A DNA stretch of 64,000 nucleotides from Dillenia suffruticosa (lineage: Eukaryota; Streptophyta; Magnoliopsida; Dilleniales; Dilleniaceae), in contig JAVTVX010000001.1 of NCBI GenBank assembly GCA_033439265.1, positions 19,920,608-19,984,607 of the forward strand, written 5' to 3'. The notes below the pieces were generated by a model. That model saw nothing but the letters and a program-made list of their open reading frames with translations, had not been told where the DNA came from and did not search any database. Shown here one piece after another: positions 13,301-64,000 of the stretch. The first letter of the stretch is position 1. Each line of letters opens with the position of its first letter. The position numbers and the translations under genes were made by a program.

Positions 13301-16300
13301 CCTGAGCAGAATAAAGTCCATTTTAATAAATTGCAGCTTTTTGTACTGTATACTCACGTTGAAAAACATGTTTTAGCAACAAATTGGCATGTTCATTTTC
13401 TTGTGCATTATTGTCAGTGACGTTCTGGGACTGAAATACAGTATTATTTCCTCTTTCCAGTACATATTCATGTGGAACAGCAGAAAAAGCATGTGTGCCC
13501 TTAGAGGCATCAACATTATTCCCAATGCCAGTCCAGCTAGTTAATTCAGGCTTCATCTGCCTGTCAATGCCCATCACAGAAGAGGTGGTCTGCAGCTGAC
13601 CAGCTATAGCAAAATTTTCACGATTCCTCACAGCAAAATCCCTAATACCAGAAGAATTAAGTTGAGATGGCAAGGGCGGATGCGCTTCCGAGTCCGGAGG
13701 TAATTGTTTCTTGTCTTCCGTAAGTACATATGACACAGAATGTGAACTTTTCTTATCCTCCAAGAATTTTGGGTTCTCCAACTCTTTTGACATGGACTCC
13801 ATCTCTATTGAACTTGCTGGATTGCCACTAGGATCTTGCAAAGATGGCTCTTTTCCTTTATGTTCAGCAACCTCTCCACGGGAGATATCAAAACTGCTGC
13901 CTGTATCGAACATTGAATAAATAATTGCATAGAATGGACCATTAATCAAGATATTGTTTACCTTCTTTGGGCAAGATGTTTCCAAGTGCAATCTCAAGAT
14001 GCAACTTCTTTGGCATCATACCGCTCCTGCAAGAGATACAACAAATATAATAAGCAAAAACTAACTGAAATATGACAAGGAATAAAATAATGTTGTGGCA
14101 TTTCAAGATCAAAGCCTAAAACAAAAACCACGTCATACAAACCTGAAGGCCAAAAATACAAGGCATTGGGCCCGAAGCTGTTTCAACTGTCGTTCATTAA
14201 AAGGCATTCCAGAAGCGTTTGAAATCTGGGAACCAGCAGCTTTTCCTGTCTCTCTAGGAAGTGCACTCCTTAACATGCCCACGTCAGCAGCATTAGTTGG
14301 CCCAATGCCCTGCTGATACAAATCAAAGTCATTTTCACAGAAAGAAAGAAAGGGGTAAAAAGCGTAAGGCCAAATTGGAAAAAGCACCAAAAGAGGTTAT
14401 CAGTTAAATCCAGAGAAAAAGTGACACCACTAAACAACACATGATGCTCAACCCTTTACAACAAGGATTGCATGTGTAGATCTTTCTTTTATAAAAAATT
14501 AAAGTTATATTAGATATATGAAAGAATATACAAAATACATGAGGACAAGAGACCCGCAGGAATGAGATCAAATTGTGTATCTTCCTATCCAAAATTATCA
14601 GAACAATAATAAAATAGCAATTCTCTCTCGAGCATGTAGAAACAGAATTCCCCAGTAGAACAAACTGCTCCTACAGCATTAGGGAAGCAGACAAGCAGAC
14701 ATTAAGAATTTTATTTTTAGGCCCAGAAGGAGGTAGAATACCATAAATAAATATTTAGAAAATATAAGCATTGTTAGAACCCAATCACTCATATTTTGAG
14801 AAGCAGCCCATTGTGTTTATGGGCATGATAGTGTACCTTTTTAAAAAGAAAAATGAAAGCTCAAGTGTGTTTTAAGAGGAAAACGATTGGCAGAGATCAT
14901 TACCACAATCGCAAAATACTGAACCATCATGTGTAAAGCATGTTCCAGATATAACTTCATTTATAAACACAAGTTCAAATCAAGAGAGAAAATACAAATC
15001 TGATGAGAAACAGCAAGTTCTCAAGTAGAAGTATAAATAATAACATTTCCAAATGGAAAGGAGAATCCTTTGGATCACCCATTCAATGCGTAGAATGACC
15101 ATCAAGTTGAGAAAAGAAAAATAAAATAAAATAACACAAAACTACACTGACAAAAAAATTATCATCTTTGAACCAGAGAGGGAGAAGTTCCCAGTCAAAC
15201 AAGAAAAATACAATATGCAACAACAAGTAATCAAGCAGATTGACATCATCCAACTTTCAGTGAGAACTATGGAAAAACAGCACTGTGACAAGTAGAGTGA
15301 AAAACCTCAAAGACAAATAAAAGTTAAGAAATGCAATCACAAATTATCAGTGCCCATAGGAATACAAGTCAATAGAACAAAATAGAAACAAAACTGATAA
15401 CCACTCATATCATGCTCGTTGTGTAATACTAAGGACAGCTTGGAGCATGGAATACCTGAAATAACATGTTGGCATTCATAGATGAGCTCGAACCACCCCC
15501 ATCATGTTCTGAGGCCTTTCCTGCCGAAGCAATAGCGAGCTCTACAGCTTTCTCGGATGCACTAGTCGTTGCAGCTTTCATCAGGCCGTGCTTCCAAAGT
15601 CCAGAATCAACAACAGGCCTATTGGCTGATAGCTCCACTGAGGAATGAGCTGCAGAGGAAGACACATCCATGCCTCTCTTTCCAGCGAGAGCATGTGCAT
15701 CATATAAGGTATTATTGAATTGTACTGGCATTGAAAATCCCTGCTCCACAGTTGAAAATGAAGTAGAAGTAGCAGGAGTCCCTCCATGGATCTTGCCAAG
15801 ACCACCTGAAATGATAAAAGCACCAGTGATTCATGATGCATGTGATACTATAGAACTCAAAATTACAGCACTTCAACTTCAGCCAAGTTGTTTCCATATA
15901 ATGCAGCAGAGTGCCAAGTTAGAGTTGCTGATTTTCAAAATCTCACAGCAATTTTAATCAAAAGCACAGGATGTGGGGCGAAATCCAGATCGTTTTTTCC
16001 TGTTTTCCTATATGCAGCATCTAATATATCTAAAAGTTAAGAACTCCGGTTTCCAGTTTTACTTTTTAATCTTCCCTTGGATCAATTTGGTCAAGCTCTA
16101 TCTCAAAGCAAAGTTTTCCACACTTTAAAACGTATAAACATGGCATCCAGAAAATTTTAAACCGCACATTTACCAAGAGATGCAGCTGTCACTTGCTGCA
16201 TTGGAACTTCAGCTGTTGAATTACTGGAAACACCACCAGTAGAAAACCTTGAGACTTGCGGCAACCCGACTTTGTTTGGATTCCAGATGCCCCTAGAACT

Positions 16301-19300
16301 AAATATATCATGTGCAGATGGCAAGGAACCACCTTGCTGTACACCCAAAGAATTGGGAGAAGAGGAAACCTCAAGATCATCAGGATACCTTGAATTAGAA
16401 CCTCGTGGTAAGGAAGCAACAGCATTGGATGATTCCAAGTGCCTTTCTGTTACATTTGGACCCTCTGTCCTGGCACCAAGAGTGGATCTCACACTACCAG
16501 ATAAAGCAGGTGTAGGGTCCATCAGCCCACCACTTTGAGCCACATTGATATGAGTATGCTCACCTCCTTTAATAACATAATTTCCTGAGGAAAGCATCCC
16601 TATCCTAGGATTCATGGAACCACTTCGGCTATCAAATTGCTGAGGGCTGTCGATGTGTTGCTCCATGCCTGAAGAAGAATCTGCCCTCTTTCTCTTATTG
16701 CTGGCCTTCTTGTTTCCCTGTTTGTCCCAATTTGCATGCTCAATCCGGTCTTGAGACTGTGAATTAGCAGATCTAGTCTCCAAACTAGATGGGCTTTCAT
16801 GATCATAAGACCTACTACTCCTATGCGTTGGAGGGCCCTGATAAGCATCATAGCTTGCACTGCCCGGGCCACCAGGTGGTCGGCTTGAAGCAAATGCATC
16901 TATCTTGGCTGTTTCCTTTTCCGCCATGGCAGTTTGGGAATCTCTCATTGCAGATACAGACTGAGGAGATCCTGCATGAATTTCTTTCTGCATCAATACT
17001 TGAATATAAATCAATGAACCAATAATTTTACTTTTAGAGTGGATGTTACAAGAAAGTTGCAGGGACAACCATAGTACCTGCTATTTGTGAACTTGAAGAG
17101 CCTCCAATCTGATTCTGACCAGCCAGAGGAAGCCGAGATGACTTCAAAGCCTCAATATCAAGACCATGCTGATTGATCACCGTTTCCATGGCCCTTGAAT
17201 GAAGAAAATAAAGTAAATAACATAAGCTATAATTGAAAACCTAAATAGCTAAGTTTTTATACATAATAAAGAAATAAGTAAACTAAATTTTTGACAGCTT
17301 GGCTTTAGACAGTTCAGGATGTTACCATAGATAGCTGCAATTTCCACACAACTCTAAAAATTGCAGTTTTGCTCAATCCATAATATATAACATCAAAACA
17401 ATGACCAACCTAAGACAAGCTCTATGGCTCACGTGGAAGATTGGGATACAAGTTCTAGCTTCACATTATTCAAGCTGGAGGAACCATGCTAAATCCAAGA
17501 AGAATGAGAAGGGAAGAAACCTAGATGAATAATAGACCTAGAAATGTAAAAAAGACCAAGATAGAAAAATGGGCAAAGAGATAAAACTTTAACAGTAGAC
17601 TCCTGTCTGTAATGCATCACACCACTCTGAACTGGTTAATGTAGTCAAAAAGATGATCACCCTCTAAGATATACCCCGTAATAGAGCAGAAGTTCCCATT
17701 ATCTATCTCCCTGATTCATTTACATTAGCAAACAGAAAGATGGAATCATTTTTCTTTTTTATTCTCATATTACTTGGATTTCATAAATGAAGAGAGATCA
17801 AGATTTGAATATCAAAAGGCCTTTCAAGAATCAAAAGTACAACCTATATAGTAGCAAATGGAGATCTTGTGACAAGCCTTGAGGTCCACCAGTAATAAAT
17901 TTCAATCAATGGACTTGTAACAAGGACAACTATTGTCAAAACTACGGTAACAAGTAAGCCAAATGTAGCTAAGATACCTTAGAAAACGGAACCGTGCCTA
18001 ATGTGGAAATTTAGATTTTTTAACAAATCATACATCAAGAAAAGAATCTCATCCAAAAACATCTTACAAGAAAGGGATTATTCATTTTCTAGGGACGTGT
18101 GGTGTCGAGAGGGGAGAATGGGACCATTACTTGTCACATCCAACCAAAAACTATCACATATTATTTACACACAACCAACTCCAACAAAAGTCACCAAACG
18201 TTAACCCAAGAGAAGGCACAGGTTAATAGCTAGGTCTAGGTTGTTAAAGGGTTAGGCCAAGGTCAAAAGCTGGGGCAGGGGAAATTTTCCCTTCTGGGAG
18301 TTCTGTTCCATCCCTACCAGTAGTCTATACGTATTTTCCTAAATTTGTACAAAGAAAGTCTACCAACTTCTACAAACAAACCTGCCACTCATCAAGAATA
18401 TGCAAAGCCCACCAGAAAAGGCCCTAGGCATCGATAGAGAATTATTCTTTTGGCCACACAGAATTCCCTCAAACTAACCTTTTTTCTGCTTTTTCCATAT
18501 ATCCAATACTTTAACCACCAACGACAAAGCATAAACCTTTGTACACCACAGAATTGGACCCATCTATACAACTCCATGTGGACAAATCTAATGAGATAAG
18601 TTTAAACCAACGCTGAACCTAAACTAGCCATAAAAAAACAGACGCTTCCTATCAAGATCTGTGCGCATTATGCCCAATCGAAATCAAACTTCTAAATTGT
18701 AGGCCTAATCATTTAACAACAAAATAGAAATTAATGGATAGGTTGATCAGTTTAAGCCCCATACAAATCACATAAGGTTTTCTCGATATAAACTTTACAA
18801 CTAGAACAAATTAAGTTATAAGTTTCAAGCCTATGATCAATTCTTTAACTTCAATTATAGAAGTTTTCACATTTGTAAGTCGGCCATATACTGCAAACCA
18901 TACCAAACCTTCAGCAGGATTACTCGCTTAAAGTTTCAGTTCCTAAATAAAGTGGAAACATTTATTGCAGGACATGGGAAAACATTAAATACAGCCAGAT
19001 ATGAGTCAGATCTGATACCTTGATATTACTTGATATGGCATTGAATGTTCCTTGCCACTTGATTTCATGTGTTGACATATCTGAAGTTAACAAGGACATA
19101 CAATTATGCACTTGGAATAAAAATTGTGCAAGAAAACACACGCACAAAAAAAGGAATAGCGTCACAGGTTACGATCTCCTCAAAAAATATATATACACAC
19201 CACGTAAAGTTTCGTAGCCAATTTTGCAGGCTCATCTTTGGAATCCTGAATAAGTTTGTGCAGAAACTTTGCCGCTTCCAACTCAACATTGGGTGGAGCT

Positions 19301-19305
19301 GCCAT
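1..19305 (-). CDS. SYD: SPLAYED (SYD)-type SWI/SNF chromatin-remodelling ATPase, C-terminus off the window
   Basis: Catalytic ATPase of a plant SWI/SNF nucleosome-remodelling complex, acting in the nucleus. I assembled 31 exons that stay in one frame (about 1962 codons): 19305-19201, 19080-19019, 17193-17078, 16971-16174, 15805-15456, 14309-14143, 14026-13962, 13900-13358, 13259-13075, 10020-9923, 9778-9593, 9444-9264, 9180-8986, 8904-8861, 8410-8354, 8171-8075, 7966-7794, 7712-7499, 7307-7182, 7071-6982, 6021-5905, 5800-5720, 5642-5535, 4816-4647, 3894-3816, 3722-3648, 3134-3037, 2942-2835, 1566-1509, 1244-1014, 910-1. The start is the ATG at 19305, opening [15 protein letters not shown] as in SYD orthologues. 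Order: SYD N-terminus, HSA-like region, helicase lobes with DEMGLGKT and DEGH, SnAC-like region, AT-hook. SYD rather than BRM or MINU is supported by the N-terminus and the absence of a bromodomain in the visible part. The right third of the gene is repeated at 44125-48598. Confidence 0.97.
1683..1768 (+). mobile_element. tRNA-derived SINE-like element (family C)
   Basis: The stretch contains TCCAATGGTACCCAAGG, which resembles a pol III A box, and about 30 nt later CAAGTTTGAGCCCTC, which resembles a B box. An A-rich AAAGAAAAG tail follows near 1760-1785. This spacing is typical of the tRNA-like head of plant SINEs. The downstream body is very short, so it may be a head-only remnant. It lies in the same SYD intron as the MITE. 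Confidence 0.45.
1926..2472. mobile_element. MITE-like non-autonomous DNA transposon in a SYD intron
   Basis: The left end reads GGCCATGTTTGGATCGC and the right end, reverse complemented, reads GGCCTCTTTTGGATTGC. These form terminal inverted repeats that continue imperfectly through GGAATCAGAAT versus GGAATAGGAGT. The interior is AT-rich and non-coding. The flanks are CAA on the left and TAA on the right, near the 3-bp TAA-type target duplication of PIF/Harbinger MITEs. GGCC-TGTTTGG ends are common in plant MITEs, but the superfamily is my inference. It sits inside the intron between SYD exons 28 and 29. Confidence 0.7.
5853..5896. repeat. (GA)n microsatellite next to the donor of SYD intron 21
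   Basis: About 44 bp of perfect GA on the plus strand (CT on the SYD sense strand). It begins about 9 nt after the 5' splice site of intron 21 and fills nearly half of that 104-nt intron. Confidence 0.95.
7315..7357. repeat. (GA)n microsatellite forming the polypyrimidine tract of SYD intron 18
   Basis: On the sense strand this is an almost pure CT tract with one interruption, ending a few nt before the CATGCAG acceptor of exon 19. It therefore occupies the polypyrimidine-tract position of the intron. Confidence 0.93.
8986..13259 (-). other. SYD: SYD exons 9-13: HSA-like basic helical region
   Basis: Residues about 736-1017 begin with [19 protein letters not shown] and continue through long runs of Lys, Arg, Glu and Gln (for example [20 protein letters not shown] and [19 protein letters not shown]). 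This is the highly charged helix before the ATPase lobes, which in SWI/SNF ATPases binds actin-related proteins. It is nearly identical to the Arabidopsis SYD block as I recall it. Exons 9 and 10 are separated by a 3 kb intron. Confidence 0.9.
10021..13074 (-). other. Long SYD intron 9 (3.05 kb)
   Basis: The donor is GTGAATATT after exon 9 and the acceptor is TTTTGCACAG before exon 10. The intron holds an AAT/TTA trinucleotide microsatellite near 12199-12226 and homopolymer runs near 12025-12050 and 12710-12726. I see no coding exon and no recognisable transposase or reverse transcriptase in it. It is the longest intron visible in the gene. Confidence 0.85.
15456..19305 (-). other. SYD: SYD exons 1-5: plant-specific N-terminal region (residues 1-477)
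   Basis: Exons 1-3 encode about 94 residues very close to Arabidopsis SYD, including [20 protein letters not shown] and [18 protein letters not shown]. Exon 4 (798 nt) is Ser/Gly/Pro/Asn-rich and looks disordered. It carries a basic cluster, KKASNKRKR, near residue 185 that could be a nuclear localisation signal. Exon 5 is also low complexity and Ala/Ser-rich. The five exons total 1431 nt, exactly 477 codons, and exon 5 ends in phase 0. In SYD proteins this half is regulatory rather than catalytic. This is the part present in both copies of the duplication. Confidence 0.93.
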
Positions 19306-20282
19306 CTCTCAGCTACAAAACACCAGAAAAGATTCTCCCATCAATTTGATGCGATCACTAAATCTACTTCACCACTAAGGTCTCTCTTCTTTGCAGCTAT
19401 AATCACAGTGTTTTACACTGCAACTGAAGATAAAAAGAAGTGATGAACTACTGGATACAAACAATCATTGCAATTACCAAAACTACAGTTTCTGAACCCA
19501 AAACCCACAAATCATACTAAATCAGATGTGTACATGATTACATCAAATACATGATGGTCAGCAATTCATGTGTTTCTACTCAAACTCATTAATCTCACAA
19601 TCAAATAAAACACGTACAACCACAAAAAATAAAAAAAAATCCTAATATATATGAAATACCAAGAAAGGCTAACCAAACTACTCGTTGATAACCAAACACT
19701 ACATCTCAAATCAACACACCCCAATCAACAAAAATGAGTGGAGTATATCTAGAATCCAAACTTCAATCGACTAATTATAGAAATTCATTCTCATTTCATT
19801 TCTCTCTCCATCTCAAATTAAAAGCTACACCATTAATGGAAGGTTCCCTGGGTAATTTTACCTATATATACTGCCGCTTGCCTCCCCCAAAACCCTTTAT
19901 TTCCCAAATCCTAAATTGAATCACACAATTAACACCATCATCAACAAAAGAATATGGGTTTGATGGCTTTCATAGTTACTACTCATATCCGCCTGATAAA
20001 TCTCTTTCATCATTTTCACTTTTTCAAAACGAAGGTTAAGCCATTTATCATATTCCCACTTCAAAAAGACTCAAAATTTTCCTAACCCTAAAAAACCCTA
20101 GTAACCATTTCCACTCCAAAACATATCGAGAACATGATCGGGATAATTTACATCCACACTCATCTCTAACAAACGGAGGTTATGAAAATGAGGTATTAAC
20201 ATGTGAATCAGGCTTTATACGACAAAAGATGAATAGCGGGAGATGGAGAATGAATTCGTGAAATTCGAGGTCGGAGACTTAC

Positions 20283-20440
20283 ATATCGAAGATCGGCAAC
20301 GTCAGGTGGAACAAGTGAAGATGAACATTTGTTGTGATCGATGGTGTGTGAGTGTGTCGCCGTGTGCTTGCTGGATTAATAGAACCCTAGAGAAGCCAGT
20401 GAGAGAGACAGAGAGAGAGAGAGAGAGAGAATAAAAAGTA
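20283..20440 (-). promoter_or_regulatory. SYD: SYD 5' UTR exon and proximal promoter (predicted)
   Basis: On the minus strand a strong donor (ATAT then GTAAGT, at 20282-20281) and an acceptor ending TTTTGTAG about 8 nt upstream of the start codon suggest a 5' UTR intron spanning about 19314-20282. The leader exon would include a CT run, seen as GA at 20401-20430. The intron contains a telo-box-like motif (complement near 20085-20101), which is common near plant transcription starts. The exact transcription start cannot be seen. Confidence 0.5.
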
Positions 20441-21955
20441 ATGGCAAGAAAAGCTTAAGAAAAGGTCGTTGATCGAAGTGCTCAACATAAGCTAGTTTCA
20501 TACGTGCTATCAGTGTGCGCGTGTGAGCGTCTTGTCTTCTGTCTTGCGCTTGTACCAAAATGCCCCCATACCCGTAATTCAATTTCAATATTTCAAAAAC
20601 GTGCCCCAAAAATAATCAAAAATTAAAAATATAAATAATTCTCAAACTTAGTCTACAGAACTAAAATTCTAATTTTAGATTTTAATATTGTCCGTCAAGA
20701 TCCAATGCAACGATTTTAAAACTAGCTTGAGAATGACGGTTTTAAAATCTTTATTTGGAATAAAAATTTTAAATTCATTGCGCATCGTTCACACTAAAAT
20801 CTCTATTAATATTATTTTCTCTTACCCGTAAACTCAAATCAAATCTAATTGTACTTACCCTGCTCTTAACTTTAAGCAATCATAACAATACTAATAAATT
20901 GATGATCATTTACCGGCCAATAGAATTATTGTCTATTATCGGCGTCTGCTTTTTCAGAAAATATTGTTTTGTATAGTTTGATGTTTTTACTGAATACCTT
21001 TTTACCATTACTGTAAGCAAAGAAGAGTGCTCGGATTGCAATCTCTGTTAGATTGTTTAGATTGTTCGTTAGTAAAGATTGTATTCTATACTAAATTTAT
21101 TAATGTAATGGCCGAGAAATTTTATAAGATGGTTAGATTAGACCGGCATGCATGGAAGGTTTGCGTGAGATGGCATGCCTAAGGCATGAAGAGATAAAGG
21201 AAGGGCTTGGACAACCTAATCGCATGTTGGAAGGGCCAAATCCTCCAAGGCCACCGACGATAGAGTGCCGGCCAACGATATTAGAGACAATCTCTCTTAC
21301 TAAATCGCTCGTACGGAATGCTTTGTTGCAGCCTCTACTTGCTTTGTGCTCCGGAAATAAAAATATCATGACATGAAATACTTGATCTAGTTGATTCGTC
21401 ATCTAAGTTTATCATTTTACTAAATCGATTGAAAAAATATTACGAATAAAATGAGATAAAAATTATCACAATCGAATGATTATTATTCACTTGTCGATGG
21501 AACCATTCGAATCATGGTTGCTTGAAAAATATCATAATAAAAACAATTGAGTATTAGTTTCTTTTTTTTTTCTTCATTAATATCAAGTTAAAACTAAAAA
21601 AAAAAAGAAAAAATCACTAATTGTTTTAAAGTTTCAATTCTTGATTTCGATTCAAATTCTGGTTTAGAATTTTAGTTGATTTTTTTGAGGGGATAAATCT
21701 TGACATGACCTTTCATTCGTTTAAGTTGGGAACCCAAATCATAAAATTGTAAAATTCTACTAACTATACAAAATAATACTTAGTTGTACTAAAAAGATCA
21801 AATTTTAAAGGGAGATGGGAATTACCTTAATGTGTGTGATTGAGATCGTGTATAGATCATAGAAAAAGTTTAGAGCAATCAAGATTTTAGATAAAAATTA
21901 AAAACCAAGGGATGGATATTAAATTATTTTGATGTGTGATTTTTTTTTTTAATGT

Positions 21956-22080
21956 ACCAATCAGTATTCAGAACTATATTTCGAATAATCCAGTTTGAGA
22001 TTTACAGTAATCCATTTGAAGCGCTACTCTCCCAACATAATCTGTCCCATATTTAAGTTACGAGTAGAATTTAAGATCTT
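21956..22080 (-). mobile_element. SINE family A, 5'-truncated remnant
   Basis: The minus strand shares the 3' body of the family A copy at 22516-22690: GGGAGAGTAG, then TTACTGTAAATCTCAAACTGG, then TTCGAAATATAGTTC and TGAATACTGAT. The tRNA-like head with A and B boxes is absent or decayed. It lies only about 450 bp from the fuller copy. Confidence 0.5.
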
Positions 22081-22515
22081 AATTTGTGATTTAGATCATG
22101 TGTAAATTGTGGTAAAAGTTTAGAACACAAATTATAATCAAGATCAGAGAGATAGTGAATAAGGAATTTGCAACATTTTATTCCTTTAAAACTTGTAAAA
22201 TTTGATGTAAATTTATGATTTTAACTTTTTTTAATGATTTATAACGTATTTCAATTGTGCTCTTAGAAATATTGCTATAAATTTATCAAACACTTGTTAG
22301 ATCAGTTAAAAAATAAATAAAATTATGTAGCATTGGAGTTCATGTGAACATTTAATTTTTGTAACTCGGTTATGTGTTTGTATCCAAATATAAAATGGGA
22401 TTTGCATGGATTTTATAACGGATTTGTTGCCTATAACTTATAAAATCATAAATTTGCCAACAAATTTATAGACATTGTCATGATAATGTCCACCTTTCCA
22501 ATTTATTTTATATTA

Positions 22516-22690
22516 TATTGATCGATATTCAGAGTCATGCTCCAATTGATTCGTTTTGAAACTTATAGTGACCTATTTAAGAAAACTACCCTCCTAACGT
22601 AGTCTGCTCCATACTCAAATCGTGATTCGAACTCGTGACCTTGATTAAGCAATCTAACACCATATCTCACTATACCAACTGACCGTTAAT
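22516..22690 (-). mobile_element. tRNA-derived SINE, family A (fullest copy)
   Basis: Read on the minus strand, the head is GGTCAGTTGGTATAGTGAG (A-box-like), followed after about 35 nt by CACGAGTTCGAATCACG, a good match to the pol III B box (GGTTCGANTCC). The body continues with GGAGGGTAG, a purine/pyrimidine-mixed region and TTTCAAAACGAATCAATTGG. The same body appears at 21956-22080 and 36885-37065, which makes this a repeat family and not a tRNA gene. It does not fold into a canonical cloverleaf with an acceptor stem. Confidence 0.65.
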
Positions 22691-25164
22691 TTTTTATTTT
22701 TTTTATACTACGAGGGGTTTCAGTATCATTACTGTACAATAAGAATAATTCTAAATTAATCCAAAATCAATTTTAAAGAAACTAGCGTGTCAAAATCAGA
22801 GTGTTTAGTTAAATTTATTTTACATAGTTTATAAGTTTTAAAAGTTTGTAAAATATTTTTAGGGGTTTATTAACGTGTAAATTCTGAGATATCTCATATC
22901 TCAATATATATATTTAAAGATGTTTGGAACAATTTATAGGTTTAGTTGGACACCCTTAGGAGCTCAACCTCTAACATGTTTGTCACACAAATTGAAAACG
23001 CGCATCAAAGATTTTCAATTTTTACTTTATTTCTATATATGAGTTAAGTTAATAATTCATGGTCGAGTTAAATTCGACAAAAAACACTAAAAAGTAAACT
23101 TATCTCAATTTTAAATTTATTTTCTAAATAAACTAAGTTTCGAGTAAATTATATGTATAGTCCCTGAACTAATGTATAGATTTCAAAAAAGTTAATAATC
23201 TTCATTTTGTACCAATTGGGTCCTTCAACTTTGTTTACGATAATAAATAAAATTTTGGGCAGACTGACGCTGGCATTTTGGAAGGAACTTGTTGGGATGA
23301 TAGTTCTGATAGGTGAGATGGCTTTGCACAATATTGTATGTTTTATAGTTTAAAAAATTTAAAATCAAAACAAAATTTTAAAACATTTCAATAAGAATAC
23401 ATTTTGTTTTTTTTTTCATCACAGATATTCGAGATTTACCCAATTAATCTGATTTAAATATTGTATGACCCATTTTAGAGATTGATTATTTCAAATCCTA
23501 TTTTGTCATTCTAATTAAGTGGGTAGAGTGCTATTGACTATTCAACACAAAGAACTTTTGTATAAGAATACATTCTTATAATAATAATAATAGTAACCAT
23601 AATCATAATCCAAGGCTTTTGTCACTCGATCTTGTTCTTGGGCGTCACAAACAACATGCATAGAATTCCAGACTAAGAGCTTTTTCGATTTTTTGATCAC
23701 GAAAGAAATTGGGGGTTTCAAATTTTGAGTAGGGATTTCAGATTATTTAAATCGCAGATAAAAAGAGTACTGAGGTTGGGGATGACCAATTCCCCTTCAA
23801 AAACCAACTTGATGCCCTCACATTGCTAAATGAGATTGGTGCTGAGGGGCCTTGGATTAGGAACTCTATATATACAAATTCACAAACAAGACTCTAATTC
23901 ATCCATTGACCAAAAACAGTGAAACCCAATTGAAAATAATGAAATTGGATCACACCATACCTTAAAAGGCATCAAAGATCGACTCCAGATAGAAAACTTC
24001 AATTCATCCAACATAGCATTTAAAAGGTAAAAATCAAGTTTAACACAAATTTCTGTTTTAGAAATAAGAACGAGCAGTTGGTGGGCATTGTGTAGCAGAC
24101 CTTATGAGCTCGTTGGCAGAAAGATTCCACCAAGATGATGGAGCCATCTGAGCAAACAGAGCAAAGAGTTGGGAGTGCGTTGATGACTGCAAACTAAAAA
24201 ACTTATTTATTATGTTAATCAAAATTTAATAACTCAATCGTTATAAATGAAATTTTAAAGATTTTTTTTTTGAAATTCATATAAGAATTATTGGAGTATT
24301 CAATTACGTATTTTAAATATCTTTTTTTTTTTTTTTTATTCTTAGCTATTGCTGTCCATTTAAATTCATAGAAAAGCATGACACACAATTTAGCCGGCGC
24401 AAACCTTGCCACGGCTCATTTAAAATAGTCTACGGTGAGTAATATTATACGAATCAAACGAGTTAAGAGTCAAATGAATCAAATTTGTGTAAAAATTTAT
24501 ACTAACAAAAAAAATAGACAATTTCAAAATTAAAAATATTGAATCGATCAAAATACTTTTTAAATTAATAATTTTTTTTTTTTTATAAAACATATCAACT
24601 TGATTATGGATTAGAATTATTCTTTTTATAACCACCAAATACCGGTGTGAGGGGTGAGAGGACTGAGGGGGTTGAGTGGATTTACCTAAGAAAATCAATC
24701 CTAGTGAGGAAAATTCTAAACTCCATCTATCATTTTATCATATTAAACCATGCGGTTTTGGTTGATCAAGTGAGTAAATTAGCGAGTCATTTTTTAAGTT
24801 ATAATTCATATTATTTAAGCATTCGTTATTAAAACTTTCGATACTTGATTCAACAAAAAAATCACTATAAAATAAAAGTTTGAATTTTGAAAAAAAAAAA
24901 CTTAAATCGTAAGCCTTTAATAATATCATAATTTAAATTCATATCACAACAAAAATTTATAAGTAATTGTTTAAAATTATGAAAAAAAGAAAACAATTAC
25001 AAGATAAAAAATTTAAAATAAAACAAATAGTATATGCATATAATGAGATATATAGTTATAAATGTTATAATAATTTAAAAGTAAAACAAATAATATATAA
25101 TGGAGGGATCGGGTTGAGAAATTTCAAAAATATCATATAGAAATTTATGAAATCAAATTCTTTT

Positions 25165-25315
25165 GGATTGACTGGTTGAATACTTTATCCTATTAGTTAG
25201 AGATCTCGAGTTTGAGTTCTAAGAATGACAAAGGATTTGAGAAAGCCAACCCCAAAATGGGTTTCATAGTATTCAAATCGAATTAATTTGGTAAAATATG
25301 AATACTGGTCGTGAA
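25165..25315 (+). mobile_element. tRNA-derived SINE, family B (copy 1)
   Basis: The head GATTGACTGGTTGAATACTT (A-box-like) is followed by ATCTCGAGTTTGAGTTCTAAG (B-box-like). The body ends AGTATTCAAATCGAATTAAT and GAATACTGGTCG, then passes into a (TA)n tract. The same 3' end occurs at 37720-37798, where it has an A tail, and in decayed form near 39340-39390. The duplicated counterpart is at about 54457-54607. Confidence 0.55.
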
Positions 25316-25320
25316 AGGAA

Positions 25321-25321
25321 A

Positions 25322-25347
<26 letters not shown>
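25321..25347. repeat. (TA)n microsatellite
   Basis: A run of TA dinucleotides directly follows the family B SINE. The counterpart in copy 2 (about 54615-54639) is shorter, so the tract is length-polymorphic between the copies. Confidence 0.9.
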
Positions 25348-25352
<5 letters not shown>

Positions 25353-25417
25353 TTATAGGCCGGTTTGACGAATTCATCAACATTCCGCTTTCTTCTGGGC
25401 CCAAAATTGAGACCGAG

Positions 25418-25443
25418 CGGGCCGGGCCGGTCCGGGCCGGGCC
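25418..25443. repeat. GGCCG-type short tandem repeat upstream of the RUNKEL pseudogene
   Basis: A very GC-rich island in otherwise AT-rich DNA, made of repeated GGGCC/GGCCG units with one T interruption in copy 1. The copy 2 counterpart (about 54710-54735) lacks the interruption. GGGCC motifs resemble plant site II/TCP promoter elements, so it may be a relic of the RUNKEL promoter, but that is inference. Confidence 0.7.
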
Positions 25444-25681
25444 TAATAATTATTCCAGGTTCTCGTTTGGGTCCAACTATCGTCGGCCTGAATTTCGTCA
25501 TCGATGTGGGGAACTTCACGTATGATTTTCAAATCTCCAAATTCCCGCTTCTCTCTGTCTCTCTCCCCAATCCAATCTCTTCCCACCCCGATCATCAGTT
25601 CCCAACCTTCCAGATTTCCATTGAACATTCTTCTCTCTCTCTCTCTCCTGGAAACCCTAAAACTGGACAACATCGACAGCA

Positions 25682-39645: not shown

Positions 39646-39647
<2 letters not shown>

Positions 39648-42328: not shown

Positions 42329-42366
<38 letters not shown>

Positions 42367-44123: not shown

Positions 44124-44125
44124 AT
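44124..44125. other. Duplication junction: VAP27 intron joined to SYD intron 5
   Basis: To the left, sequence continues the VAP27 intron after exon 10. From TGTACC at 44125 onward it matches 14832 onward base for base, while 14831 and 44124 already differ. There is no run of N and no transposon end at the joint. Microhomology at the joint cannot be measured because the right end of the unit is outside the window. Confidence 0.95.
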
Positions 44126-51808: not shown

Positions 51809-51983
51809 ATTGATCGATATTCAGAGTCATGCTCCAATTGATTCGTTTTGAAACTTATAGTGACCTATTTAAGAAAACTACCCTCCTAACGTAGTCTGCT
51901 CCATACTCAAATCGTGATTCGAACTCGTGACCTTGATTAAGCAATCTAACACCATATCTCACTATACCAACTGACCGTTAATT
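51809..51983 (-). mobile_element. tRNA-derived SINE, family A (copy 2 of the duplication)
   Basis: Same element as 22516-22690, duplicated together with its flanks, so it is not an independent insertion. A-box-like and B-box-like motifs are retained. Confidence 0.6.
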
Positions 51984-54456
51984 TTTTATTTTTTTTATAC
52001 TACGAGGGGTTTCAGTATCATTACTGTACAATAAGAATAATTCTAAATTAATCCAAAATCAATTTTAAAGAAACCAGCGTGTCAAAATCAGAGTGTTTAG
52101 TTAAATTTATTTTACATAGTTTATAAGTTTTAAAAGTTTGTAAAATATTTTTAGGGGTTTATTAACGTGTAAATTCTGAGATATCTCATATCTCAATATA
52201 TATATTTAAAGATGTTTGGAACAATTTATAGGTTTAGTTGGACACCCTTAGGAGCTCAACCTCTAACATGTTTGTCACACAAATTGAAAACGCGCATCAA
52301 AGATTTTCAATTTTTACTTTATTTCTATATATGAGTTAAGTTAATAATTCATGGTCGAGTTAAATTCGACAAAAAACACTAAAAAGTGAACTTATCTCAA
52401 TTTTAAATTTATTTTCTAAATAAACTAAGTTTCGGGTAAATTATATGTATAGTCCCTGAACTAATGTATAGATTTCAAAAAAGTTAATAATCTTCATTTT
52501 GTACCAATTGGGTCCTTCAACTTTGTTTACGATAATAAATAAAATTTTGGGCAGACTGACGCTGGCATTTTGGAAGGAACTTGTTGGGATGATAGTTCTG
52601 ATAGGTGAGATGGCTTTGCACAGTATTGTATGTTTTATAGTTTAAAAAATTTAAAATCAAAACAAAATTTTAAAACATTTCAATAAGAATACATTTTGTT
52701 TTTTTTTTCATCACAGATATTCGAGATTTACCCGATTAATCTGATTTAGATATTGTATGACCTATTTTAGAGATTGATTATTTCAAATCCTATTTTGTCA
52801 TTCTAATTAAGTGGGTAGAGTGCTATTGACTATTCAACACAAAGAACTTTGGTATAAGAATACATTCTTATAATAATAATAATAGTAACCATAATCATAA
52901 TCCAAGGCTTTTGTCACTCGATCTTGTTCTTGGGCGTCACAAACAACATGCATAGAATTCCAGACTAAGAGCTTTTTCGATTTTTAGATCACGAAAGAAA
53001 TTGGGGGTTTCAAATTTTGAGTAGGGATTTCAGATTATTTAAATCGCAGATAAAAAGAGTACTGAGGTTGGGGATGACCAATTCCCCTTCAAAAACCAAC
53101 TTGATGCCCTCACATTGCTAAATGAGATTGGTGCTGAGGGGCCTTGGATTAGGAACTCTATATATACAAATTCACAAACAAGACTCTAATTCATCCATTG
53201 ACCAGAAACAGTGAAACCCAATTGAAAATAATGAAATTGGATCACACCATACCTTAAAAGGCATCAAAGATCGACTCCAGATAGAAAACTTCAATTCACC
53301 CAACATAGCATTTAAAAAGGTAAAAATCAAGTTTAACACAAATTTCTGTTTTAGAGATAAGAACGAGCAGTTGGTGGGCATTGTGTAGCAGACCTTATGA
53401 GCTCGTTGGCAGAAAGATTCCACCAAGATGATGGAGCCATCTGAGCAAACAGAGCAAAGAGTTGGGAGTGCGTTGATGACTGCAAACTAAAAAACTTATT
53501 TATTATGTTAATCAAAATTTAATAACTCAATCGTTATAAATGAAATTTTAAAGATTTTTTTTTTGAAATTCATATAAGAATTATTGGAGTATTCAATTAC
53601 GTATTTTAAATATCTTTTTTTTTTTTTTTTATTCTTAGCTATTGCTGTCCATTTAAATTCATAGAAAAGCATGACACACAATTTAGCCGGCGCAAACCTT
53701 GCCACGGCTCATTTAAAATAGTCTACGGTGAGTAATATTATACGAATCAAACGAGTTAAGAGTCAAATGAATCAAATTTGTGTAAAAATTTATACTAACA
53801 AAAAAAATAGACAATTTCAAAATTAAAAATATTGAATCGATCAAAATACTTTTAAAATTAATAAGTTTTTTTTTTTAATAAAACATATCAACTTGATTAT
53901 GGATTAGAATTATTCTTTTTATAACCACCAAATACCGGTGTGAGGGGTGAGAGGACTGAGGGGGTTGAGTGGATTTACCTAAGAAAATCAATCCTAGTGA
54001 GGAAAATTCTAAACTCCATCTATCATTTTATCATATTAAACCATGCGGTTTTGGTTGATCAAGTGAGTAAATTAGCCGAGTCAGTTATTAAGTTATAATT
54101 CATATTATTTAAGCATTCGTTATTAAAACTTTCGATATTTGATTCAACAAAAAAATCACTAAAAAATAAAAGTTTGAATTTTGAAAAAAAAAAACTTAAA
54201 TCACAAGCCTTTAATAATATCATAATTTAAATTCATATTACAATAAAAATTTATAATTAATTGTTTAAAATTATGTAAAAAAGAAAACAATTACAAGATA
54301 AAAAATTTAAAATAAAACAAATAATATATGCATATAATGAGATATATAGTTATAAATGTTATAATAATTTAAAAGTAAAACAAATAATATATAATGGAGG
54401 GATCGGGTTGAGAAATTTCAAAAATATCATATAGAAATTTATGAGATCAAATTCTT

Positions 54457-54607
54457 TTGGATTGACTGGTTGAATACTTTATCCTATTAGTTAGAGATCT
54501 CGAGTTTGAGTCCTAAGAATGACAAAGGATTTGAGAAAGCCAACCCCAAAATGGGTTTCATAGTACTCAAATCGGATTAATTTGGTAAAACATGAATACT
54601 GGTCGTG
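54457..54607 (+). mobile_element. tRNA-derived SINE, family B (copy 2 of the duplication)
   Basis: Same element as 25165-25315 with a few substitutions (for example GAGTCCTAAG where copy 1 has GAGTTCTAAG, which brings the B-box region closer to consensus). It ends in a shorter (TA)n tract. Confidence 0.5.
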
Positions 54608-54973
54608 AAAGGAAATATATATATATATATATATATATAGAAATTTATAGGCCGGTTTGACGAATTCATCAACATTCCGCTTTCTTCTGGGCCCAAAATT
54701 GAGACCGAGCGGGCCGGGCCGGGCCGGGCCGGGCCTAATAATTATTCCAGGTTCTCGTTTGGGTCCGACTATCGTCGGCCTGAATTTCGTCATCGATGTG
54801 GGGAACTTCACGTATGATTTTCAAATCTCCAAATTCCCGCTTCTCTCTGTCTCTCTCCCCAATCCAATCTCTTCCCACCCCGATCATCAGTTCCCAACCT
54901 TCCAGATTTCCATTGAACATTCTTCTCTCTCTCTCTCTCCTGGAAACCCTAAAACTGGACAACATCGACAGCA

Positions 54974-57900
54974 ATGAATCAGTGCCACGTATATGAAGCC
55001 ATTGGTCGCGGAAAATGTTCTGTAAGCAAACTCTCTCTCTCTCTCTCTCACATCTAGATCAAACTCAAGTAGCAACGAAGATCTTTTTTTAGTTTTCGAG
55101 TGAATTGATCTCCAAATACTGTGTGAAATCGAGCAGTCTGTTTACCAAGGAAGGATGAAGAAGACGATTGAGTATTTCGCCATCAAGTGCGTCGATAAAT
55201 TACAAAAGAACAAAATTCTTCAAAAAGTCACTTCGAAATTTTCTGGGTTTATCTATAACTGTGAAGTTTTGCGATCTGGACTTTTAGTCGCTAAATTCAA
55301 TATTCTAGGGTTTAGTTTGTGTTCTACTTGATTCTGCTTGAATTACACTGGTTGACTTGTTTAATCTGTACCCAAGTACCAAAACTACTGCATTTAGAAA
55401 GTAACTTATCTAGAAAGATTGGATTTGGTTTCCAATTTTGACAGTTCTTTTCTAAATGAAATCGCTTGCTTGAACCCAAAAGGCTAAATCATGGAATTCA
55501 ATTAAATTCATTTGCTTGAAGCACACTAACATAAAAGGAAAAAGTGATTTCAATTTTAAATATTGGTACTTAGTAGCTATGAAGCAAGACATCATGAGAT
55601 AGTAGGGTTACAAAATTTACATCATACAAAATGTTGTATATTGTTGTGTCTTAAGAACCAAACAACCATGGACACCATTATTTCTAAGTGTGGTGCAACA
55701 TAGCTTACTAGTAATTATATGGTAATTAGGTTGGGGGCTCATGCAATAAAAATTAGAATCAGAAGTGAACTCCATCACTCTTGTGGAATTCATTTGCTTC
55801 CAAGGAAGTCATGGAGCATTTGTTTACCCACTCAAGTTCCTTTTCTTAAGATCCATTCAATTAAATCTAACTCTTTATTTTTGTTCCACACCAGTTTGAA
55901 TTCTTCATGCTCTTAACCATCCGAACGTTATTAAATTCCATGCATGGGAAGGTTTTTACCATGTTTAACTTTTACAGAGAATTTGTGTTGATTAGAGGCT
56001 GTAATTACTTTTTCTGATTTCTGGGATTAATCAAGTTACCACTATGTTGTCTCACTTTTTCTTTTTTCAAAAATTTTTGGTTTAAGGTATGGAACTTCAG
56101 CTCACTTGGGGAAAGTCTTGGAATACTGTGTTGGAGGAGATCTCCTGACATTATTGGATCAGGTATGCACACTCCCACGTCAACATCTATACAAGGATAA
56201 TTTGGATAGTCACTGAGAATATAAACAAATGAGTTTTTTTTTTTATTATTATTATTTTCTCATGCTTGTCTTTCAAATGGCCGACCCCAAATTGTTAGGA
56301 TTAAGTCTCAAATTGTTGTTGTTGTTTTTATTGGACTAACACTAAGGTGAATTGAAGTTTTTTGCTATAAGGGCATCAATAGGTTACCATTTCAAACTTA
56401 TTCCAATATCCCTTTTGATATCTTCCATCTGCATAAGTTTTTTAGTTCAGAAGTTAAGGGAGATTTTGGTCTTCCAGAATAATCAACCATTTGGCAGAGA
56501 CTAGATCTTCTTCCTCATTTTGGAAAATTGTTGACATGGAAGGACAGTTTACAACTTTATCCGTAGCCAAAAGATAATTGTAGTACAGCGGCTTTGCTTT
56601 TGTTCTGTCTTTGCATTTGAATTTTGTCCTATTGTAATGGGTTTAAAAGATTTTGCTTAGTATTTCCACATTATATCACTATTATTATGGCCTTCCCTTC
56701 CTATTTTTGGCAGAGAGAATGTGACTTTTGATGAGATTTCTTTTGTTATGTTGTTGCAGGATAAACAGCTTCCTGAAGAATCAATACATGATCTTGCCTA
56801 TGGCCTCGTCAAAGCTTTGCAGTAACAGGACTCCTGAACTTCCCTTATAGTTTTATGCATAATTTGTTTTCGTGATTCATTTTGGGGACTGAGAAGCACT
56901 TGCACTCAGAGGGTGTGATTTACCATGACTTAAAACCACCGAACATTCTTTTGGATGAGAATAGGCACACTAAAGTACACTGCATTTGTTAACTGTTTTT
57001 GGTTGTCAGCGTTACTCCCAATTCCTTTACTTGATCATATTCTCTCTGTCACGTTTGTGTATAATGCAGCTGTGCGACTTTGGATTGGCAAGAAAACTGA
57101 AGAATATATCTAACACTCCTACATTCTCTGTGGGTTCCTATTAACTATTTTCAGTTTTGAACAAATTCTTTGTTTGTTTATTTAATCTTGTAGATTTAAC
57201 TTATTTTCTTTCCATCACTTTAGCTACCACCTGCAAAACGTGGAACTCCCTGTTATATGGCTCCCGAGCTGTTTCAAGACGGTGGTGTTCATTCTTATGC
57301 ATCTGATTTCTGGGCTCTTGGTTGTGTATTATAGGAGTGCTATGCAGGAAGGCATCCTTTTGTAGGAAGAGTATTTACTCAGTAAAATCTATTCTCTCAG
57401 ATCCAACTCTTCCACTTCCAGGTACTCCGAGCTGTCCTTTGGCCAACCTCATTAGTTTTCTCCTGGTAGAAGGTCCTTCTGAAAGACTACAGTGGCCTGA
57501 TCTTTGTGGCCATGCCTTTTGAAGTGCAAAACACACTATATTGTCTCCATGATAGGGCTTTCTTCTAAGCCATTTCTGTCAGATTGTAATGGTGTTACCG
57601 GACTCCAACTAAATATCAAGCGAAAGATTCCAAAGTTCAGATGTTCTTTATGTTGCAGGAGCAAGGGGCAATGAGACACCCATTAAGAATACACGCAGTG
57701 GCCACAAAATTCAGTTAAAGCCTTCTGGTAAAGTAGCTGAAAAGCCAAAAGATCCCCCAAGTGCCACTAAGAAAGTTAATCTCGTGAGGCTTTCTAGAAT
57801 AGTCAAAACAAACATACAGATGGAGAATAAGAAGGAAAACTACAGGAGGCCTTTGCCTAATAACTCTGAGAATGTCATGGAGATCAAAATTGTGAACAAT

Positions 57901-60900
57901 GATATGGAACTTGATTTTGATGAGAATACAGAAACTGATGCACTAGATGACCCTCATGGGACTGGTAACGCTGCTTGAACGCCAGAAGAAAATATTTCAA
58001 CTCATGGTCAGCGTCACGGAAGAATTGAAGAGGCAGATAGCAACATCAAGCAAGTAGATGCTTCTCCTCTCATTAATTCTAATGCCGCTGATGACCATAG
58101 ACCAGGTGAGCAGGAATCATGCCCAGATGTTGGAGTTGCTGCTACCCCACCAAGTGTGTGTACTCGTGTCATAAGTCAGATGTGTGTTCAAGATTCAGGA
58201 AATGTCCCTGATCCTGGTTCTCCAAAAGCATCTAGTAACCTTTCACAGGTGCTATGGCATTCCTCGGATCTCTCTGTCAGACCTGTGATGCCCAGCAGGA
58301 AAGCCGATAAAGTATTGGAGAAAATTCCTTCTTTACCTTTTGAGGCATTGACAGCATCTGATTTTGGGAAGCTGTCAAGGATCAAAGTGACGCACTTGGC
58401 AATAAAATCATAGCCATTCTTAATAGGAACAATGTCCAAGGGAAGCCAAATGTGATTAAATACCTTGAAATGTTGAGCACTAATGCTGATGTTGCCAACA
58501 TATTGACCAATGGTCCAATAATGCTGGTTCTTGTCAAAATGCTCAGGCAACCTAAGTCATCATTTTTGTGTGTTCAACTTTTGTCACTGATTGCTTTGTT
58601 GATTAGACATTCTAATTTTATTGAGGATGATTAGGAAAATTCTGGAATATGGGTGCACTGGCTCATGGTCTCAAGCACGAGCTGGACAATAAAGCCGAGA
58701 TTTTCAATGGCTGCACAGGGGAGTTGCTGTTCTACATATCAACACAAAATGAGCATGCTAGAGACACCTAAATCTCCTTCAAAGGAAAGCTAACCCTCAT
58801 CTGGTTGGCAGGTTGCCCTCTTAACCTGTCATCTTTTAGGCAGTTTGAAGCTTGATTGTAACAAATTTTCCTTTCTGGTCCTGCTTGAGAAGATTCCAAT
58901 CTGTAAACTCTCACCGATATCTTGCACAGGTACTTGCTGCTTGCATAGTCAAATGTTATTGACATCTTAACCTGTCAAAATAACGTGTTTATATACGTAT
59001 TTCATCACTATTCATTTCTCACTCTTGCGGGTTCCAAATTCTTCAATTTTGTTGGTGTCATCTATTTTACAGAAAGGGCTGGGATGACATGACTCAACTT
59101 TATGCATTGAGGACAACTGAGAACATTTGTGGTCGAGGAGTACAATGTACTGCTTGTTTTGCAAGCTCAGATGTGATTAGTAATCTCTGTTATATATTTA
59201 GAGCTGCAGGAAAGCATGAGAGCATGAGGCTTACTGCAGGTTTATGTTTGGTTCGGCTTTGTCGTTTTGATCCTCCTACCCTGCAATCTGTCATTGCGAA
59301 GCTTTCATTGAAGGAAATTGCATCTGCTCTTGTGAAGGGAAATGCTCGTGAACAGCAAATAAGTTTGAACCTTCTAAATATGGCCATGCTTGGAAGCCAT
59401 TTGTTCTCAAGTATGGGTCGCTATCTCATTCCCTTGATGGAGGAAAAGAATCTCATCCCAAGCCTTATGTCTCTTATTGAACCGGGCAGCTAGGTTTTAA
59501 GGGGAAAAGCACTGCTTTTTGTAGCTCTCCTGTGTGAAAATGGCAGATGTTGGCTGCCACATTTCTTTTGCAGTCTAAAATTACTCTCAGTTGCTGACAG
59601 GTTGGTAAAAGAGGACAGCCATGCCAAGAGGTGTTTAGACCCGTTTGTTCATGTTGGAGTTTCTGGTGTGCCTGGATTGTTGGAGAGCATAAATTGGTTT
59701 ATTCAGCAAATGATGGGAGGAAGATACCATGGGCCTATATCTGCTCTCTCAAGTCGAGCTGCACCAAAGAACAATATTCATCTCTTTCATGTTGTCTTGC
59801 ATCTCCTTGGCAGCTTATCCTTCAAGAAAAAGGTGGCGCTACTCATCAGGTCTTACAGCAGCTGGCTAATCTGATGAAACTTGCAGAATCACCATTCCAG
59901 GTAAACTTGAAGGTCTAGGTGCCTCCTTTATCCTTCTGCTAGGACTGCAATGAACCTAGCTAATTGAATAAACGAACCAAACATGAACAAGATTTGGCTA
60001 GTTTATATATTGGTCCAAACTTCATTATCATTTTAGTAGATGAGCAGAATTGATTCAACATTTATTTCTTTCTTCACACGTAAACATGTGGAATGCATTT
60101 TCTTTGTCTCTCCTCAGATGAATCTAGAAAATTTTGGTTTTGAATTGGTAATTTGCATGTCAAAAGGTATCTTTTTGCTTTGGAAAATATGCTATTTATG
60201 ATGTATAATGGTGACGGCCAATTCACTGTGCGGTATATTCACATTAATATCTGCTTTTTCTTTGCTTCCAGGGCAGGGATGATTTCCAAATAACACTTCT
60301 GCGAGTTCTTGTGTCTGTTTCAGAGGAGCCAGCTGTACTTCATGCCTCAAATATTTTCATCCTTGACATACCTCCAAGTCTAGCTTCTCTGTACAAGGGC
60401 AATAAAGATGGAGACGCCAGATTTCTGTGCCTGAAGATCATGTTTGCTTTCCTGGTCATTTTCTTAAATGAAGAGTCAGTATGTAAGCAGAGTATTGATG
60501 ATTTGAAGTCCATAGCCACTTGTCACTTTCTTCCTCTCTACCCTCCTTGATAGAGGATGAAGATCCCATTCCCATGTATGTCCAGAAGCTCATTGTGATG
60601 CTCATTGAGTTCAATTGCATCAAAATCTCTGATATTCTACAGCTAAAGACAATTTCACAATGTTTGGAGTTTTTGCTTGGCAATCTTTCAAGAGCAAATG
60701 TAAACAATGTCAAGCTCTGTCTGGCTCTGGCATGTGCACCTGAATTGGAGTCCATGATACAGTCTCCATTAAAAGTAGTCCGGAGAAAGAAACCTCCTGG
60801 AGTTTGTCAATGCAAGAGAAAGAGAAGATTTTCTTGAACCCTGAGTCTTTGTAAGGCCTTCATCTTACGATCTGTGGGCAACAAATACCCTTCCACTTAT

Positions 60901-62582
60901 TCAAAAGAACCAGCTCTTTTATGTGACAATTCTTCTGAGGCAAGCATTATCGTTGATCCAAAACAGTGTATTAGAGATATTATGGATTTCAGAAGCAACA
61001 CTGGTGTCTTTCTTGAGCAGCAGCCATGAAGCAAATGGGGCAGACATAGCTTCTGAATGTGTTATTTTGTTGCTTAAGGCACCTCCAAGGGAAGGAACCA
61101 CTGACTTTTTAACTAACCTTTCCAAAGTTAGTGTGATTCTTGAGTCCTGGTGCTGTGGCATCCCTCAATCTTGCAGAGAATACTGTATGCTCTTGGCTAT
61201 TCTTGTAGGCAATATTTGTCAGAAGCAGTGATATTATCATTCTCTATCCTGGAGATCACAAAAATTGAAGCCGCTGTGTCTGAACTGAATAATTCAAGCA
61301 CAAAAGGTGTAGCTGATGCTGTTTTTTTTGTGCACCCAGAGATGCAGCAATTGTGTTGTTTATGAAGTCCTTCACATTGCTCAATTGGTTATGCCCATCT
61401 TCTTCTCTCAATTTGGTTCTAGCTGTTCCATTTTACTATTTGTACACTGGTTGCAGGCTTCAAAATTTATTAGTTTCTTTAAAATTTGAAATGCCATGAA
61501 ACACTTAATTTTTTTGATCCTTGAATTGGAGTTCCTACCTTCCTTGTAATCTCATGAGCTTATACATTGCCTGCAAAACTTCTGCCATGTAATCCAGCTG
61601 TACGTCCATATGTATACATGCAGCATGATTAAGAGCATTCAACTGCAACGTACTTGTGAATCACATTGACAGTGCCATGCTCCATTCTGAATATCATTGT
61701 AATGTGTGAGCTAATCCTTCACCTTGAAAACTACTGCAATCTGGTCCATCTCTACTCCTTCATATACATTTAGTATTATTGAGTGTTCAATTGCAATTTA
61801 GTTTGGAAACTCATTGATAGCCATTGCTATATCTATTTCGATAAGGTTCTATATTCATCAAGTCACATCTGTATTTTATCGCTTTGGCTATAAGTGAGCT
61901 TCTATTACCTTGAAGTTGTGTGCTTGCAGGCAATCTGTTTGTGCGATCTGGGACTTGGAAACAATGGTGTCTCTGATTATTTTTTTTTTTGTATGTTCTC
62001 TTGTAGTCATTAAAATTGTCAACCTTTCTTCTTTTGGGTGCAATGGGGTTCCTGCCTATCCTAAGATCAATTGAGAGATCGGTCTTGATCAGTTAACATA
62101 AAATGATTAAATTCTTTTGGAGGTGAGTCCTTTTCAAGCTTTGTACGATCTAACATAAGGTCAAAATGAACATAGAGTTATAATTGAGCCACCTACACTA
62201 ATCCATATTCGTAATTCTGCAGATGCACTGGCAGCCCTAAGGGAACCTTATTCTCTTCTCCCCTTGGTATGGTTCTCTCTGAACGCATTAAAAGTATACC
62301 CTTTTGACAATCCATACATATTTCAACCTTATACAGTAAGATTTTCCAAGCTTACTGGAGTCAAATATGTTCCCTCCCATTTTGAGTGACCCATAATTGC
62401 GTATGAACCCACAGGTGTTTGCTGCACTGCAACTGGTTCTTTGGAGAGCAAGGTTGGTTTTGTTGGTCCTTATCAGCGGCTATCTAATTAAGCCCCGTGA
62501 TTTGCGGCCGCAATCCTTTGGCAGTATTGGAGGCAGCAACATGTGCTTTGTAGGCACATAGGAAGGTCACATCCTGTTCAAT
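54974..62582 (+). pseudogene. RUK: Unprocessed RUNKEL-type kinase pseudogene, copy 2
   Basis: Same exon and intron layout and nearly all the same disabling changes as the copy at 25682: TGA before ILHALNHPNV, TAG at 57332-57334 within GCVL-ECY, and the TGA after HGTGNAA at 57976. So the gene was already dead before the duplication. One lesion differs. At 57493-57495 this copy has TGG (Trp in RLQWPDLCGHAF, as in RUNKEL proteins) where copy 1 has TGA. Other substitutions are scattered. Retained kinase landmarks include IGRGKCS, the invariant-Lys motif AIKCVDK, HDLKPPN and DFG, but no continuous reading frame joins them. Confidence 0.92.
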
Positions 62583-63176
62583 TTTCTTCCGGTAATCTGC
62601 ATTCACCCAGTCTTATGAGCATCCAAAGAAGTCACTGCTACCTTTCTTTTCTAGTATAGATTTTTATGCGGACTTGACTATGAGACAATAAATTGCTTCT
62701 ACCTAATATAGCAAAGACATCAATATAGGACATGAAATACGGCAAGAACATCGCATGAATACGAGATACTGAACAGAACCCGAGAACACGGACATGACAA
62801 AATTATAAAATTTCCACAGAATTCTAAATTATAAGTTGTCGTGTCTCATTTTTTAAGGTATCCATGCAAAGTAGTCTCCCACTAAATTACAATCAAAGGG
62901 GAATCCTCTAGTAACAAACACATCCGAACAGATCCCAACTAACATTTGTCTCTTTCCTCAGACATGCCCACGTGTATTCCCTCATTGTTGTACACTAAGT
63001 GCATGCCATATGGCACGTGACCCCACCTAGAGGGCCTGAAATTATACCTTTATAAAGCTTCAATAAATCATTGCTCTCCAAAAGGGCCTCTCTCTCTCTC
63101 TGCCTCTCTCTCATCCCTAGTACTCAATTGCACATTAAGTGCAGTATTCAAGAAGAGTGATATCATCATCATTGGA

Positions 63177-63599
63177 ATGGCCTCCTTTTGGTTCCTTTTA
63201 GCACTCATAATGCCATTCATGGCCTCATCTTCGGCATCTTTCTCTTCTACAATGAGCTTAAACGCCTCCACTATCTCAGCCTCACCTGCATTGTCACCAA
63301 AGTCTCCAGCCTCTGGTTTGCCAGTACCATCACCAGACATCACTCCACTTTTGCCTACTCAATCTCCAGGTTACACAATTGTGTCTTCTCCAACTGAGTC
63401 AACCATGCCCACGATTCCGTCTAGCCCAAGTCCACCAAACCCAGACGACATTGCCTCTCCTGACTCAGAATTTGCACTTCCTCCATCTGCCACTCTGCCA
63501 CTCTCCTCAGCAACACCTCTGGATTCGGTGAACCCTTCATACTTTGCTCTGTCTCTGAGTCTGGTTGCACTTTGGTCACCGCAGATTCTGGGATTCTGA
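63177..63599 (+). CDS. Classical arabinogalactan protein, AGP26-like (copy 2)
   Basis: 140-residue intact frame, identical to the copy at 33885 apart from Leu for Ser near residue 28. Signal peptide, Pro/Ser/Thr/Ala-rich body with X-Pro glycosylation motifs and hydrophobic GPI-signal tail are all kept, as are the TATA box and both G-boxes upstream. If the duplication is real, both copies could be expressed. Confidence 0.85.
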   Translation: MASFWFLLALIMPFMASSSASFSSTMSLNASTISASPALSPKSPASGLPVPSPDITPLLPTQSPGYTIVSSPTESTMPTIPSSPSPPNPDDIASPDSEFALPPSATLPLSSATPLDSVNPSYFALSLSLVALWSPQILGF

Positions 63600-64000
63600 G
63601 GTTTTGAGCTTGGAAAACTCGTTATTCTTTTCTCTTCGCTTGGTGATCTTTGATATATAGTGCATATATATAATTATGTATGTATTTTTTTAGCCATTTT
63701 AGGTGATCTTCATGAGATTGTAATATATGAGAAAGAAGATTTTTACTATTGTTAGCATTCTTTTTGGTATGATTATTGATCTGCTCAACCCCATGTTTTG
63801 CTGAAGTATGAATTTTTGTGAATGTCAATGCTGCAAATTCTTGTTTTTTTTTGCCCGTGTTTTGTTGCTTTCTAGGTGATCTTTCGTGAGAAGACAGAAC
63901 TTCGTTAATTTTCAAGTTCTCTGAAATATGATAGCATTTGATCTTCTTAATTTTCTTTGTTGGGGGGGGGGGGGGGGGAGATCAGCCTGGTTGTCTTGAT

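Follow-up and report, generated by a model that had tools for sequence, protein, structure and literature searches.

On contig C1 of the Dillenia suffruticosa assembly (596 Mb in 37 contigs), a unit of 29.3 kb is present in two head-to-tail copies, an arrangement that, judged from the assembled sequence, probably represents a real and fairly recent tandem duplication formed by end-joining. The window, i.e. the whole stretch of DNA that was analysed (64,000 bp, C1:19920608-19984607), contains the first copy and part of the second. Self-comparison of the window showed that 14832-34706 recurs at 44125-64000 on the same strand with 99.648% identity over 19,880 aligned columns (61 mismatches and 7 gap openings), in the same order and orientation, as the sequence-only reading had described. 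At a minimum length of 150 bp, the window contained no other direct repeat. Its left edges were exact, and its right edges merely coincided with the window end. The length of the match rules out chance as the source of the repeat.

When flanking sequence was added (20 kb on the left and 60 kb on the right, giving a joined sequence of 144 kb), the match extended to 14832-44130 versus 44125-73392, covering 29,318 columns at 99.277% identity. Reading of the ends in the sequence placed the unit at 14832-44124 and the second copy at 44125-73386, directly adjacent and head to tail. Two full copies in the same orientation, with no intervening DNA, give the layout of a tandem segmental duplication. 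The repeat in the sequence is confirmed and exceeds what the window shows. The longer sequence also supports the earlier proposal of a tandem unit at about 14832-44124, including its predictions that the VAP27 block would return beyond 64 kb, where it was found in the right flank, and that the unit would end near 73.4 kb, copy 2 stopping at 73,386. The block at 34.7-44.1 kb had been regarded as single-copy, and this did not hold, as a genome search with 36000-38000 found the query again at C1:19985902-19987903. A repeat of about 190 bp at about 36860-37060 gave 38 further matches among those listed (best 40 of 3,206 candidates scored), at about 78-83% identity and on many contigs, and is probably a short dispersed element.

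The features of the region are as follows, in window positions.

1-19308, minus strand: SNF2-family (SYD-like) gene, whole copy, extending past the left end of the window; exon limits are approximate (open frames)
14832-44124, plus strand: copy 1 of the unit, 29,293 bp, from self-comparison and end reading
25682-32070, plus strand: RUNKEL (ULK4-like) pseudogene, copy 1, from ARM_RUK and HEAT_ULK4 and from tblastn with P0121
33885-34307, plus strand: AGP-like open frame of 140 aa, copy 1; class from composition, by eye
40026-43867, plus strand: VAP27 copy 1, modelled with nine exons and lacking the last one, from the Motile_Sperm domain and the gene model
44124/44125, no strand: joint of the copies, without Ns; its TG (2 bp) also opens the right flank at 73387
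44125-64000, plus strand: part of copy 2 inside the window, continuing to 73,386 (C1:19993993)
44125-48601, minus strand: truncated copy of the SYD-like gene, at the copy-2 position of 14832-19308 and ending at the joint
54974-61362, plus strand: RUNKEL pseudogene, copy 2, from tblastn with P0121
63177-63599, plus strand: AGP-like open frame, copy 2, with S28L relative to copy 1

Four gene units had been assigned to 14832-34706. Three were recognised there, namely the SYD-like fragment, the RUNKEL pseudogene and the AGP-like frame, and VAP27 lies further right.

The SNF2-family gene at the left edge has an SNF2-rel_dom at 7493-7729 and a Helicase_C domain at 3525-3914, and its PDB relatives include SNF2, ISWI and BRG1. 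Presumably it is SYD, a name suggested by the amino-terminal sequence and a long carboxy-terminal frame. The left edge of the unit (14832) falls between the candidate exons 15432-15830 and 14136-14396 (open frames), so that the truncated second copy has just the amino-terminal exons, which precede those of the ATPase.

At the other end the unit cuts VAP27, whose Motile_Sperm domain was detected with E = 5e-30 and whose best-listed relative was a Dillenia turbinata protein (90%). The last exon, encoding the membrane anchor, is located at 73407-73522, to the right of copy 2, and occurs only once in the 144 kb; the right cut falls 20 bp short of it. A small exon near 42.84 kb, apparently used by the relative P0001, is missing from the VAP27 model.

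For RUNKEL, the D. turbinata protein P0121 served as tblastn query. The match to its residues 205-576 contained in-frame stops (7 and 6 for copies 1 and 2, respectively), and the alignment shifted frame at several places, features by which RUNKEL is classed as a pseudogene in both copies.

A homoeologous block was found on another contig, C11 (18228001-18258000), which aligns a single time and with the gene order preserved (SYD-like, RUNKEL, AGP, VAP27). One alignment, at 13926-16041, crosses the left edge of the unit uninterrupted. On the right the alignment is interrupted between 73,027 and 74,723, picking up again past the end of the unit, which leaves the right edge unbridged. With that limit at the right edge, the C11 block appears to represent the unduplicated state in a related region. 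Its RUNKEL is better kept, with three matches to P0121 (94, 96 and 97%), one of which contains a TAG; since the first 152 residues of P0121 were absent among the matches listed, wholeness of this gene is not claimed. The VAP27 homoeologue on C11 looks decayed, giving six matches to P0001 at 49-81% identity, none of them reaching past residue 251 within the fetched 30 kb. There is thus an apparent reciprocal loss between the homoeologous blocks, RUNKEL being a pseudogene on C1 and better preserved on C11, and VAP27 being kept on C1 and decayed-looking on C11.

The two copies of the unit differ by 144 substitutions (94 transitions and 50 transversions) and 26 indels. The excess of transitions and the clustering of the differences indicate true variants, and sequencing noise was rejected as their source. 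The substitutions are unevenly distributed, with 2 (0.03%) in 14832-20900, 47 (1.02%) in 20901-25500, 12 (0.13%) in 25501-34900 and 83 (0.90%) in 34901-44124. A model with four rate segments (changes at 20955, 25476 and 35119) improved the fit by 65.5 log-likelihood units over one rate, and seven segments by 87.5 units. With C11 as outgroup, 20 of the 144 substitutions were derived in copy 1 and 18 in copy 2, 7 were ambiguous and 99 had no usable outgroup; there was no overall asymmetry between the copies.

Purifying selection was considered as the cause of the low-divergence blocks and rejected, as 6 substitutions separate the two dead RUNKEL copies over 6,389 bp, where about 65 would be expected at the neighbouring rate, or 33 at half that rate. 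Identity to C11 was roughly 80-88% over genes versus 67-76% between SYD and RUNKEL, so that divergence from C11 varies about twofold along the region versus eight- to thirtyfold between the copies. Because RUNKEL shows a low rate without selection, and because the variation relative to C11 is only about twofold, even divergence since the duplication is excluded by this mosaic of rates. The copies may hold an allele-like mosaic or may have undergone partial homogenisation. The latter, by gene conversion, would require homogenised tracts of at least 6.1 and 9.6 kb, which are long for this process. The low divergence over a dead gene means that similarity of the copies is no guide to age at this locus. 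In the VAP27 exons 2 changes were observed versus 5.8 expected (Poisson P 0.07, Fisher P 0.21), a depletion that is suggestive only.

The same mosaic bears on the chief competing explanation, an assembly artefact of the heterotype false duplication kind, in which two haplotypes of one locus would have been placed in series, the left flank and copy 1 coming from one haplotype, and copy 2 and the right flank from the other. A divergence of 0.03-1.02% with long identical runs is allele-like and fits this explanation, though a real duplication between homologues, or conversion, would account for it too. The proteins modelled from the two VAP27 copies are identical, with 2 silent changes in the genes, which is likewise consistent with haplotypes, and errors of this type are well documented, also within one scaffold, in the portions of the two accounts that were available (PMC2864568, PMC9516828). 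In the available portion of PMC9516828, false duplications are recognised by discordant linked reads, 1-copy k-mers, halved depth and, where both copies lie on one scaffold, gaps between them, such gaps counting among the main marks. In Dillenia, however, no gap separates the copies: no Ns are present in the window or in the fetched flanks (144 kb), the joint included. Copy 1 ends in ...TTTTGACA, copy 2 starts with TGTACC, and TGGACC opens the flank to the right of copy 2, giving a microhomology of 2 bp (TG) at the joint. Sharing of at least 2 bp is expected in about 16% of random joints.

A joint sharing 2 bp would leave an assembler no overlap to cross, implying that the joint was produced either by a read that spans it or by an erroneous join or gap filling. 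The sizes of contigs C20, C34 and C37 are exact multiples of 500 (25,790,000, 25,062,500 and 13,083,500), those of C11, C12, C19 and C1 are not, and the former sizes hint that scaffolding software cut or joined sequence, so that a faulty join keeps some probability. It was also observed that the contigs given for two D. turbinata proteins have sizes that are multiples of 1000 (25,813,000 and 20,834,000), which suggests that the scaffolding procedure was similar to that of C20, C34 and C37. Three parts of the unit behaved as two near-identical copies or as predicted, whereas both control stretches of C1 (6 kb each) lacked a near-identical second copy, the best 40 of 675 candidates being scored for one and all three candidates for the other, which speaks against the haplotype explanation. 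The background frequency of such duplications in the assembly was judged from the 144 kb and these two stretches. Given the absence of a gap at the joint, a real duplication by end-joining is favoured over the haplotype artefact, which we regard as a possible explanation with a probability well short of even.

A real duplication that arose through repeat recombination or transposition instead of end-joining is very improbable: repeat-driven tandem duplications are described in Arabidopsis (PMC5101643) and duplications produced by Ac in maize (PMC3744419), as far as the available parts of these sources go, but comparison of the left edge with the right end, each with its 1-kb neighbourhood, found no direct repeat, the two matches obtained being inverted and weak (25 bp at 80% and 14 bp at 93%), and no transposon ends were recognised at the joint when the junction sequences were read by eye. 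Recombination between border repeats (NAHR) was accordingly rejected within these neighbourhoods. The 2-bp joint together with the lack of a direct border repeat is consistent with end-joining or microhomology-mediated repair rather than repeat recombination.

Under the preferred explanation, a real tandem duplication by end-joining, one break would have fallen within a SYD-like intron and another within the last intron of VAP27, and the broken ends would have been joined via end-joining or microhomology-mediated replication repair. Most simply, the joining would have taken place between two non-identical homologues, with the SYD-like break on one and the VAP27 break on the other, and the copies would thus have carried allelic differences from the outset. 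Later partial gene conversion would be an alternative route to the same mosaic. As an outcome, the SYD-like gene and VAP27 would each persist in one whole copy, with a truncated one added. RUNKEL would already have been dead at the time of duplication, and the AGP-like frame would be the sole apparently complete frame gained. The net gain is inferred to be small: a single AGP-like frame, along with two genes in truncated form and a duplicate of an already dead one. We suggest only tentatively that the duplication took place between diverged homologous chromosomes, with allelic variation fixed side by side on one chromosome and with the truncated SYD-like gene and the anchorless VAP27 reading into each other antisense at the joint.

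In practice the locus is a further example of a recent plant tandem duplication, or else a duplication of assembly origin. Caution is needed with gene counts, as annotation could add a SYD-like gene, a RUNKEL and a VAP27 here, although truncation affects two of these extras and both RUNKEL copies are pseudogenes.

Among known systems, the heterotype false duplications resemble the Dillenia case in having near-identical neighbouring copies with allele-like divergence (PMC9516828, PMC2864568). As described in the available portions of these sources, those on one scaffold are typically gapped, whereas the Dillenia joint is gapless. The duplications produced by reversed-ends Ac transposition in maize are also direct tandem duplications in a plant, according to the part of PMC3744419 at hand, and they differ from the present case, where inspection by eye recognised no transposon ends at the joint. 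Tandem duplications of BOR1 in Arabidopsis thaliana from Cape Verde, one of them about 38 kb, have junction microhomology of 3 or 6 bp, and end-joining or microhomology-mediated replication was proposed for them in the accessible text of PMC13037888. That text backs the BOR1 cases by reads, copy-number tests and phenotype, whereas the Dillenia case comes from assembled sequence. One BOR1 junction contains 26 bp of new sequence, unlike the Dillenia joint with its 2 bp of microhomology. As far as PMC13037888 could be compared, the likeness to BOR1 lies in a direct plant duplication with microhomology at the joint.
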